A DNA stretch of 64,000 nt from Geosiphon pyriformis (taxonomy: Eukaryota > Glomeromycota > Glomeromycetes > Archaeosporales > Geosiphonaceae), in assembly GCA_016748015.1 (NCBI GenBank), contig JAAOMT010000239.1, forward strand, positions 226,812-290,811, in the 5' to 3' direction. The position numbers and the translations under genes were made by a program. This document shows, piece after piece, positions 400 through 53,349 of this stretch; the first letter of the stretch is position 1, and every line of letters begins with the position of its first letter. The notes under the pieces were generated by a model, which was not told the DNA's origin, did no database searches, and saw nothing but the letters and a program-made list of their open reading frames with translations.

Positions 400-1897
400 A
401 TGGAAAACAAAGAAATTAAAAGAACAACTCGTCCATACGCTCATAATTGCAATGAGTGTCGACGGTGTCAACAGAGTATTAAAGATAATTATAATCATTG
501 TAGAACATGCCAGTTCATGTTTTTTGAAAAACATTATAAAGACTTTTCAAGTGGCAATGAAGAAGTTGATAAAATAATTAAGAATCCAATCTATATTCCT
601 GATAATTGGAATAGTCAATTGAATTACTATGAATGGATTCCATGGGAGCGTTTGTCGGATATCAACGAAATTGCTAGAGGAGGGTTTGGTATAATTTATA
701 AAGCAACCTTAATTGATGGATTAATTGATGTAGAAAGTATAAAATATCATGGTTCAATGGAATATAAAAGAAAAAGAATAGGATGGGCGGTAGCAATAAA
801 AATTATCCCAACGAACAGTTCAGAAGTGTTTAAAGAGGTAACAAACTATTTATATTTATATATATTAATTTAATTCACATTTACTTATTAGTTATTTACT
901 ATATATATTATCTATTTACTTAATCTTTTTTTACACTGTGTTTTGATAGTTATATATTCAAAGAGCTATGTTTAGTTATAAGGGATATGGAAGTTCTTAT
1001 GTCTCTAAAATATTGGGGATTACGCGAAACGCTGAAACACTCGAGTATGGAATTGTGATGGAGTTTGCCAAAAAGGGAGATATGCGAAAATATTTATCAA
1101 CAAATTTTCATTCTACGAGTTGGTATGATAAATTACACACCGCGTACAGTATAGCTTCTGGACTTGAACATATTCATTCTACTGGTTTGGTTCATCGTGA
1201 CCTACATTCGGGCAACATCCTACAATTATACAATAATACGGTAACTATTGGAGACCTCGGATTATGTCAGCCTACAAACTATGAAGCAACAACAATAACA
1301 GAGGAAAAAAAGATATTTGGAGTGATTCCATATATTCCACCAGAAGTTTTAAGAGGAGAAAAGTTTACAACAGCTGGTGATATTTATAGTTATGGAATGT
1401 TATTATGGGAATTATCAATAGGAAAATCTCCTTTTCATGATTGTCCTCATGACGAAATCCTTATAATGGCTATTTTAAATGGTCAAAGACCTAATATTAC
1501 CTCCCCACTTATTCCACCTTCTATCGGTAAACTCATTAAAAAGTGTTGGGATGCTAATCCTAAGAATCGTCCTACTGCTAGAGAACTTACAGGAAAGTTT
1601 ATGGAACTTCTTGATTTGTATAATAATCATATATTTAGATTGATATACTTTGGGAAATCAAATATACTAACAAAAATAGCAAAAAATGACTCGACAACAA
1701 CAAAGATAGCAATTCATCCAGAAGCAGTTTATACAAGTCGTCTTTTAACTGCTCAAATGGTCAATTTTTCAACAGGTTTGTTTATTTAATTTATAAAATG
1801 ATTCATTTTATTTGCTTTAATTACATATTTTAACTTTCTTTTTAAATAATTAGTCTATTTGCCTGAGAGTAAAAAAGTTGAAGAAAATTTTGAATGA
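400..1897 (+). CDS. TKL-type protein kinase with N-terminal zinc ribbon, intact, 3 exons
   Basis: Exons 400-837, 950-1775 and 1854-1897 (introns GT-AG, 112 and 78 nt) give 435 aa. Residues 17-37 carry C17-x2-C20-x2-C23 and C34-x2-C37, a probable zinc ribbon. The E-W-I-P-W linker follows at 78-82, then the kinase domain: glycine loop G-G-F-G near 94-97, VAIK lysine at K134, catalytic loop H228-R229-D230 with N235, D248-L-G (DLG for DFG), and P-P-E at 276-278. All catalytic residues are present, so it is probably active; substrate unknown. The C-terminal HPEAVYTSRLL motif and the tiny 44-nt last exon (ending VYLPESKK plus seven residues) recur in the neighbouring copies, which supports the splice model. 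Without the last intron the frame would stop at 1789. The fold is TKL-like; the family is greatly expanded in Glomeromycotina (established knowledge). Confidence 0.88.
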
Positions 1898-6012: not shown

Positions 6013-7115
6013 TTATGTATATTCTAACTTTTTAAACGTCTTACCTTTAGGGAGATAGACTAATTCTTCCATCCATTTTAATAAATAATAATAATTAAAT
6101 TAAAGAATTAATCAATACAAAAACACTTTTAAATTAGATCAACTAACCTTTAGAAAATTCAACCATTTGAGCAGTTAAAAGACGACTTGTATAAACTGCT
6201 CCCGGATGAATTATTACCCTTGAACCATTTGTCGTTGAGCTTTTTGTGTCGTCCCGCTTTATAGTCTTTTTAAGGGATTGAATAGTTTTTGAAAGTTTTG
6301 TTCTCCAACCGCTTATTTTAATGAGTATATCTGATTTCATGAGGTATCTCCACCTTTTAAACTTATTCTATTAAGTTCTCCTAACTTTTTCCTAACTTCT
6401 TCAGCAGTAGGACGATTCATAGGATTATCATCCCAACACTTTTCAATGAGTTTAGCGTAATAAGATGGAATAAGAGAGGATGTGATTTCAGGTCTGGCAC
6501 CGTTTAAAATGTTCATTATAAGAATTTGGTCATGAGAACGATCATAAAAGGGAGGCTTTCCTGTTGCCAATTCCCATAATAACATTCCTAGACTATAAAT
6601 ATCACCAGCCATCGTAAAATTTTCTCCTCTTAAAACTTCTGGTGGAATGTAAGGAATTACTCCATATATCTTTTTTTCCTCTGTTGTGGTTGCTTCATTT
6701 TTTGTGGGTTGACATAATCCGAGGTCACAAATTCGTGTGCCAAAGAAACCATATTTATATCGGAGGATGTTGCCCGAGTGTAGGTCACGATGAACCATAC
6801 CAGCAGAATGAATATAACCAAGTCCAGAAGCTATAGACCACGTGATTTTTAGTCTTTCAGACCAACTCATAGAATGAAAATTTTTTGATAAGAACTTTCG
6901 CATATCTCCATATTGGGCAAATTCCATTATAATTCCATACTCGGATGTTTCAGTGATTTGCGTAAGTCCCTTTATTCTAGAAATAAATGATAGGTGCCCA
7001 CCCTCAATAAATATAGATCTTTGTATATTTAACTATCAAAAGAGTAAAAGTGAAAGAATGATAATAATTCGATTAAATTAATCAAAATTAAACGTTCAGA
7101 TGAATATAAATAATA

Positions 7116-29273: not shown

Positions 29274-31029
29274 ATGGACTACTCCCCAGCATCACTATAC
29301 AACGCTCTATACCCACCAAATAAAAGAAACGTAAATGAAATAAATCAAATTTATTCCCTAAAAAATTAATACCCATCTATACTAATATAGTTCTTAATAA
29401 ACTCACGCGATTCTTAGGCTGCATCAACTGGGTTGTTATTAAATGGCCGATGTCAAAAAATGCTCCAAAGTCGAGCTGCCAAAACTACATCTGGATATCA
29501 TCAAGACCGCAATCAATGTCACCAATGCCAACGAAAATACTTTGGCCAGGATATATGTCAAGAATGCCGTGCATTTTTAATATCAGAAAATTTAGCAACT
29601 TTGCGTTCAAGTGGGAACCAAGAGATAGATGCGTTTTTAAAAGAATCAAACGCTGAAGCTATACATCATCTGGGGTTGTTTATTTGGATTCCGTTTGCCG
29701 AATTTGGAAATAAGCAACATATTGCAAATGGTGGATTCGGGTCGGTTAGTTTTGCTATATGGTATTGTGGAAAATATTCTTCATCAATTGAGGAGTCGTC
29801 AAATAATTACACACAAGAAGTTGTTTTAAAATCCTTGAAGAATTCACAAAATATTACTAAAAACTTTTTGAATGAGGTCAGTAAAATTGAAATTAAAAAA
29901 TTTATGATTTGGAAATTAATGATTTGAATCAATTCAACAGATCACCGCACATCGACATTGCCAAAAAAGTGCTCGCGTTGTAAGGTGTTTTGGAATAACT
30001 CAACATCCTGAAACCATGGAATATTTAATAGTAATGCCATTTGCTCAATATGGGAATCTTCGAGAATACATAAGAGAAAGAGGAGAAAAACTCACTTGGG
30101 AACAGAAACTGGAAATTCTTCGAGACATTGCTGAAGGTTTAAAGGATATTCACGAAAGTAATCTTATCCATTGTGATTTGCATAGTGGTAACGTTCTACA
30201 TTTTCACAATCCAGAAGACCTTACAAAAAGTAAAATATTAATTAGTGATTTGGGAATGTGTCGACCTGCAGATGTTCCATCAAAAGGATCACGAAAACAA
30301 ATTTTTGGTGTCATTCAATTTCTAGCCCCGGAATTATTACGTGGATGGGACTATTCAAAAGAATCAGATGTATATGCCTTTGGAGGCATCATGTATGAAG
30401 TTTTGATGCACAAAGTTCCATTTTGGGAACATTTTGATCCTCATTATTTGCAACTTGACATTTGCGATGGTGTTCGTCCAGAGATTCCGCAATACGCACC
30501 TAAATGTTACGTAAACTTGATGAAAAAATGTTGGGATGATGATATTCGATTTCGACCATCAGCTTCTAATTTATATTGGACACTTTCTCAATGGTTAGCT
30601 GAGTTCTCATTGACAAAATTTGGCCGTAAAGGAACCTTTCACCATGGCAAGTATATATATGATTTCGAAGGGGCTCAACACCTCAGGCGAAACCAAAATG
30701 AGGAACAAGAACCATGTGGCATGGATGAATTGCCTTTCCTTAATTTACCTGAAGCTCAGCATACTAGCTGTTTGATTGGTCTTACAAGCGATAGTAAACC
30801 TATTTTTGGAATACGTGTAGATGATAAAAGAAATTCTCCTAGTTTTGATGGTAAGTAAATAAATTGACCTTTTGCAAACGCGATTAAATAGCAATTTTGA
30901 TTGATTTCTCGAAAATTTATTTTGATAGAATACGAATCCCGTCAGAATGAACTTACAATTAGTATCCAGGATCTTAACTGTTTTCTTGATTACGAATTTG
31001 ACGGAAGAAACATGTCGCGTAGTTTTTGA
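29274..31029 (+). CDS. TKL-type kinase with zinc ribbon and HCD catalytic loop, 4 exons
   Basis: Exons 29274-29330, 29418-29876, 29941-30850 and 30929-31029 (phases 0, 0, 1) give 508 aa. The short first exon MDYSPASLYNALYPPNKRN joins in frame to the second. Zinc-ribbon cysteines at 53, 56, 66 and 69; IW-I-P linker; glycine loop G-G-F-G at 124-127; VVLK lysine K157; catalytic loop H249-C250-D251-L-H-S-G-N; D275-L-G; A-P-E. HRD to HCD is a known natural variant in this fungal kinase family, and the Asp, Asn and Lys needed for catalysis remain. The last exon begins EYESRQNELTISIQ, resembling EYDSRIQNLALSE, a microexon of the kinase at 48057, so the tails are homologous. Intact; substrate unknown. 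Confidence 0.87.
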
Positions 31030-47574: not shown

Positions 47575-47694
47575 AATATATACATACATATATACATACA
47601 TACATACATATATACATACATACATACATATATACATATATACATACATACATACATACATACATACATACATACATACATACATACATACATA
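47575..47694. repeat. (TACA)n / TATACATACA compound microsatellite
   Basis: About 120 bases of CATA units with regularly interspersed TATA variants, ending in a pure CATA run. The frames across it on both strands are low-complexity artefacts (Tyr/Ile/His or Met/Tyr/Val/Cys repeats). Confidence 0.97.
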
Positions 47695-48056
47695 CAATTG
47701 CAGACATGGAAGAGTCTTTTTTTCGATCTATTGTTTTTAGTTTATACCCCCATTCAAAGAACAAAGTTTCCTAGTCATGAAAATAATTATTAGTGCATCA
47801 ATAAATAGTTGAATTCGGCTTTAAATGGATGGTTTACTAATGTTATTGAAAAGCTATACCTGTTAACCACCTGGTCATTATAAGGAGTTAAATTGCACTT
47901 GGAATTTTAATACAATTATATACCACGAGTTCGTCGTGATCGACCCAATATTTTCCTCATCAATACCCAAGAAATTATATTTAACCAAGAAAAATTGTGA
48001 TGAATTCCTGAAAACCTGAAAAAAAATTTTATCAAGTTTAAATTTAGATTAATCAA

Positions 48057-48693
48057 ATGTCCCCCAATTTGCGCTATGACTTAGTTTATAAGGCAGTAGA
48101 AGAAGCTCATATAGAAAATCCTGGAGAGACGAATGAACAATATGAAATACGTCTTCGTCATATTAATCGAAACATATTTTTAACCGAACAAGAAAAATCA
48201 TGTGCAAAGGCTGTTTTTACAAAGAGTAAAGATCAAGAAAACCTTCTCAATCGTACAGGACAAACCTATAAATGTAATTTGTGTGGACGTGCAGGGTATA
48301 CGGTGGAATTTTGTGAAAATTGCGCAAGAGATTGTCTTGAAAAAGATTTTCCATATTGGAGTTCTGGCGATGAAATTATTGATACCATGATACGAGATTC
48401 ACAACTAAACCTCCCTTTACCAGGATTTTTAATTGAATGGATAGAATATAAAGATCTTAGGAATATTTCCTTTAAGACGAAAGGTAGTTGTTCATCTATT
48501 TATACCGCAACGTGGAGGAAAGGTTGTTTGGAATCATTTGACAATGTTGGAAAAAGATTCAAAAGAAGTCGACCAAAGAGAGTGGTTTTAAAAGTTCTCA
48601 AAAGTTCAAAGTTCACAAATCAACATTTTCTTAATGAGGTTAGTGAAGATTATTTTAAAGCTTTACAGACGAGATATTAACACTATTATTAGT

Positions 48694-48750
<57 letters not shown>

Positions 48751-51074
48751 CATAATAATAATCATAATCATCATTTATGCATAACAGTTGACGACACATA
48801 TAAATTTACGAGCTCATGGTTACCAAGTTGTTCATTACTACGGAGTTTCAAAAGCACCCGTGACTGATGAATACATAATTGTCATGAAGGAAATGGATCA
48901 AGATTTGAGGAGTTTTTTGAATAATGGAGCCGGATCTCTTACATGGACCACCGTTTTCAAACTTTTCTCATGTTTAGCTCTCACCCTAAATAATATACAC
49001 AAAGAAAATATAATCCATCGAGATCTTCATAGTGGTAATATTTTAGTTGGTCAAAGCGATTATTGGTTTATATCAGATTTGGGATTTTTCGGACCACCTA
49101 ACAAGCCAACCACGAGTATATATGGCAATCTTCCTTATATGGCCCCAGAAATAATATGTGGCAACCCTTATACACCTGAAGCAGATATTTATTCCATGGG
49201 AATTTTAATGTATGAGGTTACATGCTCGACACCGTTTGGAAACAGACCACATAATTTCGAGCTTGCAATGGATATTGTTTTGGGTATAAGGTAATATCCA
49301 TTAAATATATGAATTTAAATCGTATAAAATATATGTTATTGACAAAATTTATTCACGTTGGTTAGGCCAACTATCCTTACAAATATCCCTGAAGATTACG
49401 AGGCTTTGATGAAACGTTGTTGGGATGCAGATCCTTCAAAACGACCAACGGCAAAATATCTTCGAAAATGGTTTTATATACATTATCAAATACGTTCAAA
49501 AGAATCTATATTAATCTTCGAGTCGGAATGCAAAAGAGAACCAATTTCAATGACAAGTAAAAGTGCAATATATCAATTCAATGAATTACCAATACCAAGG
49601 AATGCAACCTATGGTGAATTGTGTTTTCTTTGAAATCTTTATTAATATTTTTCATCCGTCTTTTCTTGTATTGATTATTTCTCTATTTTTTTCTTTGAAT
49701 TTAGAGGAACAGCAAGGTATTTAATATATTTTTGGATTTAGAAAAGTATTCGAATTATTTATAAATCATTATGAAAACAGAATATGATTCAAGGATCCAA
49801 AACCTCGCCCTATCTGAAGGTAAATACTAAAGATATTTGGCTAATTTCCATTTATTTTTGTACAAGATAATCGATCCAATTCTTCTAATCTTTTAGAAGC
49901 TGAAAGTCATGAAAAATCCGAACAAGGTATTTTTATTGGTAATTTTTTTACTCTCGACATCTCTAAGGCTTTAGGTTTTGAATGAAAAAAAATTCCATCA
50001 AAACTCTGAAAGATGATTCACAAAACGAGGAAATGGAAGATACCCAATCCGAAAGCAGAACCGAGTATTCAAAATCTCCTAATTTACAAGGTATTGAATA
50101 TATATGTTAAATTGTTACAATTTCTTTATTTATGTCTTAATCGATTATTCTTTATATTTTAATCGATTATTCTTTATATTTTAAAAGGTGATTTTGATAA
50201 CAAAATATTCGAGTTTCCCACGAGTATTTTAATAGGTAAGAATTAATCAATTGTTTCACTAGTTTAAGTGGCTATTTCAAAAAAGTTTAATTAATTATAT
50301 ATTTGAATATAAGCTCCACATCGAAAATTAGCGTCGCGATCAGAATCACAATCTCGAAGGAGCTCGATTACTGACATATCAACGAGTAATGTCTTTTATA
50401 TTGTGCCCACTGAATTTTTAGATCCTTTATTCCCCCTTCTTCAAAATTGGCTGTCTAATATCTTCTCTCTTATTTCTTAGCTGTAACCTTCCGTCCATCA
50501 ATTCCAAGACCTAAGACAGTTAACGTTGTAACACCCGGTAATTTCAACCGTTATTTTCAATTTGTTTCTTATTTAGGATTAGAATTCATTCAAATTAAAA
50601 ATTTTTGGGTCGAAATTTTTTAGACCGTATAAATAATAAGTTAAAATCCGAAAAAATGTCTAAATTAAGGTTTCAAGGTAGTATTTTCTTTTCCAACTTT
50701 GAATTTTTATTTCAAAATCTAATGGAGCTTTAAAAAATTTTTAAAAGATCTCTTAAACCCCAGCGCAAAATTGAAAATAGGACTAATGAAGAAACCAAAA
50801 TTTGGTAAAAAGGGTAATTTCTTGTGCAAAATATTCAAATATTTAAAACGAAAACCGCAACTGGATTAAAGTTTCTGGCAATTTAGAGTTGAATTTTCAT
50901 CACATTTCTATTTCAATTTTGCTAATCTCATCTCTTTTAAAGCTTTTTTATCTTATTATTGTATTTTTAATATATAAGTTCATCTCAAAAGTTTTATATT
51001 ATTTACACACGCCTAAACATAATTATTACTGCAATCCTACTACATTGTATTATACTACTTTAATAATTCTTTAA
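48057..51074 (+). CDS. TKL-type kinase with a C-terminal tail built from microexons, ~13 exons
   Basis: Core exons 48057-48638, 48788-49290 and 49366-49613. Tail exons 49705-49716, 49781-49819, 49897-49926, 50013-50090, 50188-50235, 50314-50385, 50481-50537, 50624-50677 and 50748-50813 measure 12, 39, 30, 78, 48, 72, 57, 54 and 66 nt, all phase 1-1. A last exon, 50887-51074, is less certain. Total 658 aa. The N-terminus has a zinc ribbon (CNLC ... CENC). The kinase part has VVLK, H271-R272-D273-L-H-S-G-N and D291-L-G, but the glycine loop is degenerate (KTKGSCSSIY instead of GxGxxG), so ATP binding may be weak. Exon 5 (EYDSRIQNLALSE) resembles the tail of the kinase at 29274. The tail is acidic, then Ser/Arg-rich and basic. 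The final exon would add a hydrophobic, possibly membrane-spanning end. An acceptor two bases downstream (AGAG) gives another end. Confidence 0.75.
48695..48768. repeat. (AAT)n microsatellite in a kinase intron
   Basis: An AAT repeat with some CAT units inside intron 1 (48639-48787), the same position class as the TAA repeat in the kinase at 6013-7691. Translated, it would give poly-Asn, but it is removed by splicing. Confidence 0.93.
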
Positions 51075-51497
51075 ATTTAAAAAGACTACATAGATGCCGG
51101 CCATTTAAAGTCAAAATAATAAAATATTCAAAATAACATTTTATTATTTTGAAAGTATTAAAAGAATTTAAAAAAAAATCGATTTCCCTTGGAATAAATA
51201 AAATTTGAAAATTTATTTTTTGTTTCTTAATTTATTATTCCAAAACTTGATATAATGTTATTTTTCATGTACAAAAAATTATCTTTGATTTGATTCATAA
51301 TATTAAAGTCAAATTATTACATATATTTAATTGGAAAAAAATATTTTAATAAATATTATAAATTTTTGAGATAATGAATTAGGCTTTGAGTCTTTTGATA
51401 AAAGCTTTAAAATAGATTTTTATTAATAATATATTTTGATTTATAATTATGTAATATTTGATTTTAAAAATTTAATATTTTGTTAAATTTATAAACA

Positions 51498-52028: not shown

Positions 52029-53349
52029 ATGGAAAACCTTGGAATTAAAAGAACTCGTCCAGAAGTTCATGATTGCAACGAGTGCAAAAAATGTCAAAAG
52101 AGCATTAGAAAGAATGAGGATAATGAATGTGCAGCATGATTGTTCTTATTTTTTGAAAAACTTTATAAAGATTTTTCAAGTGGTGATAAATTGGTTGATG
52201 AACTATTAAAGAATCCAATCTATATTCCACCCAATATTCATGATAAATATGATATTGGTAGAGTTAATTATTATGAATGGATTCCATGGGAGCGTCTGTC
52301 AGATATCAAAAAAATTGGGGAGGGAGGGTTTGGTATAATTTATAAAGCAACCTATATTGAAGGACTAATTGATATGTGGATTAAACCTCATGGTTCAATG
52401 GAAGATAAAAGAAGTAAATATGATGTAATTGGAAAAAAGAGGGAATTTGCAATAAAATTTTTAATTCTTATTTATATAAATTATTAAAATTAATTTAATT
52501 TTGTGTAGTTAAATATTCATAGAACCGTGTTCATTGAGAATTATGGACACACAGTACTTCTCACTCAAATAAGGGGAATAACACAAAACATTAAAACACT
52601 CGAGTATGGAATTGTGATGGTATTTTCCGAACATGGAGACACGCGAAAGTATTCATCAACAAATTTTCATTCTACGAGTTGGTTTTATAAATTATGGATC
52701 GCGTGGGGTATAGCTTATGAACTTAATGATATTCATAAAGCTGGTATGATTCATCGTGATCTACACTCAGGCAGCATCCTACAACATAGTAAGTATTGGA
52801 GACCTTGGATTATGTCAACCTGCAAATCATGAAACACCAATAGAAAATTCAAAAACAACAAGAGCAACAGAGGAGAAAAAGATATTTGGAGTTATTCCAT
52901 ACATTCCGCCAGAAGTTTTAAGAGGAGAAAAGTTTACAACGGCTGGTGATGTCTATAGTTTTGCCATGTTATTATGGGAATTGGCAACGGGAAAGCCTCC
53001 CTTTTATGATTATTCTCATGACGCCATACTTATAATGGCTATTTTAAATGGTGCTAGACCCGAGATTAACTCCCCACTTATTCCACTTTCTATCGCTGAA
53101 ATAATTGAAAAGTGTTGGGATAATAATCCTGATAATCGTCCTGCTACCAGAGAAGTTGAGAGGAAATTGTGGGAACTTAAAGATAAATATAAAAATAGGT
53201 TTAAAAGATGGATATACTTTGGAAAATCAAATAAACTCCTAAGAAAATTGGTAGAAAATGACGAGATAACAATTCATCCAGGAGCAATTTATACGAGTCG
53301 TCTTTTAACTGCTCAAATGGTTAATTTTTCAACAGGTTTGTTATTTTAA
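52029..53349 (+). pseudogene. TKL kinase copy with nonsense codon and frameshift
   Basis: Close relative of the kinase at 400 (MENLGIKRTRPE start, CNECKKCQKSI, GEGGFGIIYKAT, HPGAIYTSRLLTAQMVNF end). Defects: TGA at 52137-52139 replaces the last zinc-ribbon cysteine codon; about 11 bases are missing after the catalytic loop (near 52790), so the frame changes before IGDLGLCQP; the catalytic-loop Asn is Ser (HRDLHSGS); and the last-intron acceptor AG has become AA (near 53381). The intron around 52475-52510 is still recognisable (acceptor TTTTGTGTAG|TTAAATATTC). Young pseudogene. Confidence 0.85.

Follow-up and report, generated by a model that had tools for sequence, protein, structure and literature searches.

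Behind its catalytic core, a predicted protein kinase gene of Geosiphon pyriformis carries a train of short exons that is real in its main part and lies beyond what chance produces. The probable reading is that of a kinase with about eight inherited phase-1 tail exons and a terminal exon, normally all joined so that a single bipolar tail results. The gene lies in a window of 64,000 nucleotides, which is the whole stretch analyzed (bases 226812-290811 of contig 402, in a genome of 124.7 Mb and 406 contigs), and its parts, in window coordinates, are listed below. Tail exons 1 to 7 are placed both by a search that yields a unique chain and by a splice model free to use any phase, as described later.

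48057..48638, + strand: kinase exon A, N-terminal region with CxxC pairs plus the N-lobe; open frame from an ATG, donor GAG/GTTAGT
48788..49290, + strand: kinase exon B, from the end of the N-lobe into the C-lobe, with HRDLHSGN, DLG and APE; covered by PF00069 and PF07714 over the spliced protein
49366..49613, + strand: kinase exon C, end of the C-lobe and linker, ending NELPIPRNATY at a phase-1 donor
49705..49716, + strand: tail exon 1, 12 nt, EEQQ, phase 1 on both sides
49781..49819, + strand: tail exon 2, 39 nt, EYDSRIQNLALSE
49897..49926, + strand: tail exon 3, 30 nt, EAESHEKSEQ
50013..50090, + strand: tail exon 4, 78 nt, acidic, with a weak acceptor
50188..50235, + strand: tail exon 5, 48 nt, GDFDNKIFEFPTSILI
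50314..50385, + strand: tail exon 6, 72 nt, Ser/Arg-rich, donor ranking 18 of 55
50481..50537, + strand: tail exon 7, 57 nt; with the sequence ending at 51100, kept by the free-phase model at three penalties out of four
50624..50677, + strand: tail exon 8, 54 nt, moderate support; in the unique chain, and in the model over the full region at penalties -4 and -6
50748..50869, + strand: preferred terminal exon, a basic C-terminus ending KRKPQLD with stop TAA at 50867-50869; open reading past the donor at 50814
50887..51074, + strand: alternative last exon, 62 codons, strongly hydrophobic, or else a T-rich 3' UTR; needs a 66-nt exon at 50748-50813

The sequence places the locus as a predicted protein kinase of a large family, with its main motifs intact. 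The spliced core protein, which as a query was two residues short at one joint, matches PF00069 (E 1.4e-34, 120.1 bits, curated cutoff 31.7) and PF07714 (E 1.2e-32, 113.7 bits, curated cutoff 23.1). Its translation contains VVLK, HRDLHSGN and APE, with DLG where DFG is expected, and we take these to be the catalytic motifs that go by the names of VAIK lysine, HRD, DFG and APE. The window is kinase-rich, because further PF07714 matches occur at 995-1594 (+), 6382-6960 (-) and 29947-30576 (+). Directly downstream of the gene, at 52030-53340 (+), reading by eye finds a second, degenerate-looking kinase whose frames are broken and run early into an in-frame stop; it also has a decayed tail microexon of 21 nt, a type of exon treated below. 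A match to the pattern of that exon type, at 6043-6067 (-), stands behind the kinase at 6382-6960 (-). Two simple repeats were also seen by eye: the first kinase intron contains an ATA-type microsatellite (about 48690-48775, +), and a TACA repeat precedes the gene (about 47575-47695, +).

When exons of 12, 39, 30, 78, 48, 72, 57, 54 and 66 nt are to be joined by GT-AG introns of 60-99 nt, starting at the donor at 49614, only one stop-free chain exists. Its being the single possible chain confirms the preliminary description, in which these nine lengths were separated by GT-AG introns of 64-97 nt and lay in phase 1 throughout. The accompanying claim that any subset of the exons keeps the frame is arithmetically right, because all junctions are in phase 1 and none of the 45 forward joins creates a stop codon at the junction. 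The change of character along the tail is likewise borne out, with net charge moving from -15 over exons 1-5 to +20 over exons 6-8 and the preferred terminal exon (the latter value assumes a terminal exon at 50748-50869). Of the phrase "nine microexons," the train stands in its main part and the size label does not: two of the eight internal exons are within 36 nt and four of the eight within 51 nt, the limits used in excerpts of PMC11121469 and PMC4317164, respectively. Splice signals along the chain are uneven, the acceptors of exons 1-9 ranking 3, 40, 5, 59, 8, 32, 4, 53 and 26 among 64 AGs, and eight of the nine donors falling within the top 11 of 55 GTs. As for exon duplication inside the tail, the candidates amount to four short two-copy repeats, one of them 17 nt long and lying across two donor sites, and are unconvincing.

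GT and AG dinucleotides are frequent in AT-rich DNA, so we built a dynamic program that combines donor and acceptor matrices with a codon score and allows every phase. The matrices derive from 21 introns, none of them from the window tail: 14 come from chaperonin genes, 5 were located by eye in the tail of L006 (contig 355), the closest relative of the window gene, and the core of the window gene supplied 2. The chaperonin introns are 14 of the 17 placed with a GTAAGT/YAG preference; in 16 pairs of neighboring chaperonin matches, no intron was placeable. Over the full region and at the loosest penalty, the free-phase model recovers exons 1-8; exon 8 is recovered at penalties -4 and -6 and lost at -8. 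With the tail cut at 51100, exons 1-7 are kept at three of the four penalties and exons 1-6 at the fourth, and exon 8 is absent at all four.

The excess over chance is clearest in the run of consecutive exons with phase 1 on both sides (1-1 exons). At penalty -8, with the cut at 51100, the real tail scores 44.6 versus 5.2 +/- 3.9 for 200 dinucleotide shuffles and holds seven such exons in succession versus a shuffle maximum of four; under the same cut the run is seven versus five at penalties -4 and -6 and six versus three at -10. Among 300 control segments of the window, taken from both strands and presumed mostly noncoding, although they may run into genes, the phase-1 run was 0 in 240, 1 in 51 and 2 in 9, and none reached 3 or more. 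Run length is better evidence than score, because one control segment, the highest, scores 53.5 and so beats the real 44.6. Single-phase runs of the program at penalty -8 yield 15.0 for phase 0, 24.5 for phase 2 and 55.6 for phase 1, and the chain collapses if only phase 0 or only phase 2 is permitted. Free-phase recovery thus upholds exons 1-7 of the chain as first described; exon 8 depends on the settings, and a 66-nt ninth exon competes with a longer terminal exon.

At this 3' end, the figures for the two readings are as follows. The donor of the 66-nt exon, at 50814, ranks 6 of 55, and the acceptor of the exon at 50887 scores 7.1; the reading of 50887-51074, with a 19-residue hydropathy of 2.74, is open in 56 of 2000 shuffles. 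Readthrough to 50869 is open in 523 of 2000 shuffles, a count that concerns its 18 codons. The endings that the model itself chooses differ from both readings (one, for example, is a 33-nt exon from 50781), and the terminal exon of L006, examined as possible support for 50748-50869, gives a score reached by 1690 of 5000 shuffles and is not claimed as such. We prefer the terminal exon at 50748-50869 to a splice to 50887 because it is the simpler exon, although the data do not tell the two apart. With 50887-51074 as a genuine last exon, the C-terminus of the kinase would be strongly hydrophobic and resemble an anchor, an appearance that a T-rich 3' UTR can mimic.

Related loci place the tail in context. 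L006 shares with the window gene 47% identity over exon A, 43% over the C-lobe alignment and 37% over exon C, and its tail consists of phase-1 exons of 12, 36, 36 and 84 nt followed by a basic last exon. It has REQN in place of EEQQ for exon 1 and EFDRGISDMILG (36 nt) for exon 2, and its 84-nt exon is the counterpart of exon 4, both starting with DD. Recovery of the L006 tail by the model is not independent, because five L006 tail introns are in the training matrices; the end of L006 was set by hand at the first in-frame stop, and the model adds one more intron after the basic exon. Similarity between the two tails is matched by 3 of 1000 shuffles in local alignment and by 2 of 1000 in global alignment, and the order from acidic to basic also occurs in L006 (-12, then +10).

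L081 (contig 122), which lies outside the training set, has 39% identity over exon A, and its tail begins with a 12-nt phase-1 exon, AEQK, that has good splice scores on both sides. There follows either one exon of 216 nt or two of 48 and 87 nt around an in-frame candidate intron of 81 nt. That 81-nt stretch (1706-1786 of the reverse-complemented locus) is stop-free; its donor is good and its acceptor poor (-1.7), and it is a candidate for either coding sequence or a retainable intron. The end of L081 was again set by hand at the first in-frame stop, and the model runs on into an apparent next gene. Past the first microexon, similarity to the window tail is not significant: in local alignment 967 of 1000 shuffles reach it, and in global alignment 63 of 1000 do. 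A homology between exon 7 of the window gene and part of the L081 tail, with a score reached by 744 of 5000 shuffles, is not claimed.

A tree of 38 C-lobe rows, in which the rows of L007 and L016 are one stretch taken from overlapping loci, unites the window gene, L006 and L081 with support of 99/94; the program issues a warning about this grouping, in which L006 and L081 join on long branches. As judged from these models, the content of the tail is not rigidly conserved, because exon number differs among the members of the clade: there are eight internal tail exons in the window gene, four in L006 and two or three in L081, the ends of the latter two being hand-set. L082 (contig 112), with 33% identity over part of exon A, has a first tail intron in phase 1 and a big tail exon that is modeled as 1131 nt at penalty -8 or as 259 plus 812 nt at -6. 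L002 (C291:349577-352693) holds pieces of a decayed tail copy: the end of exon 5, the intron and the start of exon 6 are preserved at 82% over 126 bp, and part of intron 8 and the end of exon 8 are present too. Nearby, inspection by eye finds kinase fragments only.

In the wider family, PF07714 has at least 145 matches in the genome (144 of 597 first-look candidates were scored). We examined 46 loci, dropped 7 without the linker motif and kept 39, at least one of which (L016) has a spurious anchor. The first tail intron is in phase 1 in 34 of the 39, at least one leading 1-1 tail exon is present in 26, and a 21-nt exon of the kind E-L-V-Y-L-P-E in 17. Genomewide, the pattern of this 21-nt phase-1 microexon has 55 copies with AG/GT flanks versus 0 for the reversed pattern, and 72 copies without flanks versus 8 in the control, counts that measure recurrence with intact splice flanks, not conservation, because the pattern fixes both length and peptide. 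With the 145 listed kinase matches as landmarks, 32 of the 55 flanked copies follow one of them on its own strand at a distance of 245-644 nt, and no copy occurs within 1500 nt of one on the opposite strand; the remaining 23 may belong to kinases outside this list. Exons of other lengths (15, 23, 25, 27 and 31 nt) are modeled at the place of the 21-nt exon in some paralogues. Phase-1 tail microexons are, on this evidence, a trait of the family, because tail introns and exons of this phase and the 21-nt microexon recur across paralogues. The window gene has the longest modeled phase-1 run among the loci examined, and L006 and L007 come next with four; the four exons of L007 (C308) measure 57, 81, 90 and 69 nt, and this locus falls outside the window gene's clade in the tree.

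What the sequence shows is a phase-1 chain of exons beyond chance expectation, together with phase-1 tail microexons in paralogues; from this we infer the remainder of the preferred explanation, a constitutively joined tail. An ancestral family tail would have stood behind one phase-1 intron after the kinase linker, and the clade would have gained or subdivided exons within that intron. The uniform 1-1 phase can arise without selection for skipping, because an exon inserted in a phase-1 intron must be 1-1. The short introns would be recognized across the intron, and every exon would normally be included. The main product would then have an extended, disordered-looking tail with an acidic segment followed by a Ser/Arg-rich and basic C-terminus, and such a bipolar tail might act as an electrostatic regulatory or docking tail, through autoinhibition or through binding to a partner, a membrane or nucleic acid.

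Several lines of evidence bear on whether the exons are always joined. The 12-nt exon in two clade paralogues, together with the 55 copies of the 21-nt exon, suggests regular inclusion. Exon skipping is comparatively low in fungi and rises with longer flanking introns, according to an excerpt of PMC6142364, a paper whose reference list includes a Rhizophagus irregularis transcriptome; with tail introns as short as those here, this leans toward constitutive joining. Against a constitutive tail stand the weak acceptors of exons 2, 4, 6 and 8, as regulated exons can show. On balance, splicing diversity appears less likely than constitutive splicing.

Of the alternatives, that of exons 1-8 as optional cassettes, from which many tails of varied length and charge would be made, is unlikely. 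All eight internal exons are 1-1 and, as noted, no junction yields a stop; the several weak acceptors fit it too. Short exons are skipped more often (excerpt of PMC6142364), which favors this combinatorial view, and filamentous fungi offer one example of a cassette microexon with a function (excerpt of PMC11121469). Against it, the tail introns span 64-97 nt in a group of organisms with comparatively low skipping, and the 12-nt exon recurs in both clade-mates examined. Animals possess a microexon activator domain, SRRM_C (eMIC). A six-frame search of the genome for it (PF15230), with introns disregarded, gave no match at E<=0.1, a weak negative, since the control genomes of the panel all fell below the cutoff too. 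The proposal that one locus could make many kinase tails is partly supported: the exons are frame-neutral and modular, and many tails are possible in principle; paralogue recurrence and short introns lean against actual skipping.

Improbable as well is a switch by truncation, in which a retained intron, or an exon start at 49975 (+), would end the protein early and remove the basic end, giving long and short tails. A stop follows within 3-32 codons whichever of the nine tail introns is retained, so that retention would truncate the tail and not vary it, and retention exceeded skipping in all species studied but one (excerpt of PMC6142364). The acceptor at 49975 scores 4.2 (rank 7) versus -2.7 (rank 59) for that of exon 4 itself, and the reading from it is GFE followed by an immediate stop. 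Against the switch, the matching exon of L006 is modeled with its own acceptor, TTAATTAG, which scores 2.4 (its intron is part of the training set), and the splice matrices rest on 21 introns.

It is quite doubtful that the family uses its phase-1 tail microexons as splice-selectable modules, with the window locus as the most elaborate of those examined. In this reading, regulated choice among the eight exons would set the charge and length of the tail and so give many kinase forms per gene, in a fungus with many nuclei in a shared cytoplasm. Very unlikely is a partly illusory chain, with the gene ending sooner and with exon 8, the ninth exon or further ones being 3' untranslated or chance sequence. 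In its favor, GT-AG pairs abound in AT-rich DNA (at the loosest penalty, shuffles have 9.1 introns on average), stricter settings lose exon 8, and the ninth exon can be read in more than one way. Against it, exons 1-7, or at one penalty 1-6, survive in the cut region, chains in the other two phases collapse, and exons 1-2 are common to L006 and exon 1 to L081.

The resemblance to micro-exon genes (MEGs) suggested at the outset breaks down on two points, the length of the introns and the secretion of the product. The MEGs of Schistosoma have exons of 6-81 bp, mostly multiples of three; their introns measure from 100 to almost 5000 bp, and their products are secreted and share a conserved signal peptide (excerpt of PMC10526429), and alternatively spliced isoforms of them are reported (excerpt of PMC10399815). 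What the window gene shares with them is a run of short exons, its tail exons 1-8 measuring 12-78 nt and all being multiples of three. In contrast, its core exons are long, its tail introns span 64-97 nt, and its product is a kinase without a hydrophobic N-terminus (in a hydropathy scan only, the best 12-residue mean within the first 40 residues is 0.12).

Conserved plant microexons appear to be a better parallel in behavior than the Schistosoma genes. In an RNA-seq-based study of plant exons of 1-15 nt in many gene families (excerpt of PMC8831610), these tiny exons are of conserved size, phase and position, as here, and retention is commoner than skipping; the window gene differs in that as many as eight follow one another in a single kinase, as read from genomic sequence. 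Among filamentous fungi, Xlr2 of Trichoderma virens is a transcription factor with one regulated microexon, established by experiment (excerpt of PMC11121469). It shares with the present case a small exon in a filamentous fungus and differs in being a single transcription-factor microexon, as opposed to a kinase-tail train that has been read off genomic DNA. The same 2024 paper states, in its excerpted part, that functional microexons had not previously been described in filamentous fungi. Rhizophagus irregularis also has a very large kinase family, with 2,533 members (excerpt of PMC10234402) to set beside the 597 first-look candidates here, and differs in that tail microexons go unmentioned in the excerpted part of that paper. 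Microexons in kinases of arbuscular mycorrhizal fungi did not appear among the matches listed from the open-licence literature.

If the splicing reading were true after all, the gene would choose its exons combinatorially, which is unusual outside animals. Even if the tail is constitutive, a very large kinase family here bears 12- and 21-nt phase-1 tail microexons. Misannotation is frequent for exons of this size (excerpt of PMC8831610), and because gene finders tend to miss tiny exons, the kinase C-termini predicted for such genomes may in many cases be incorrect.
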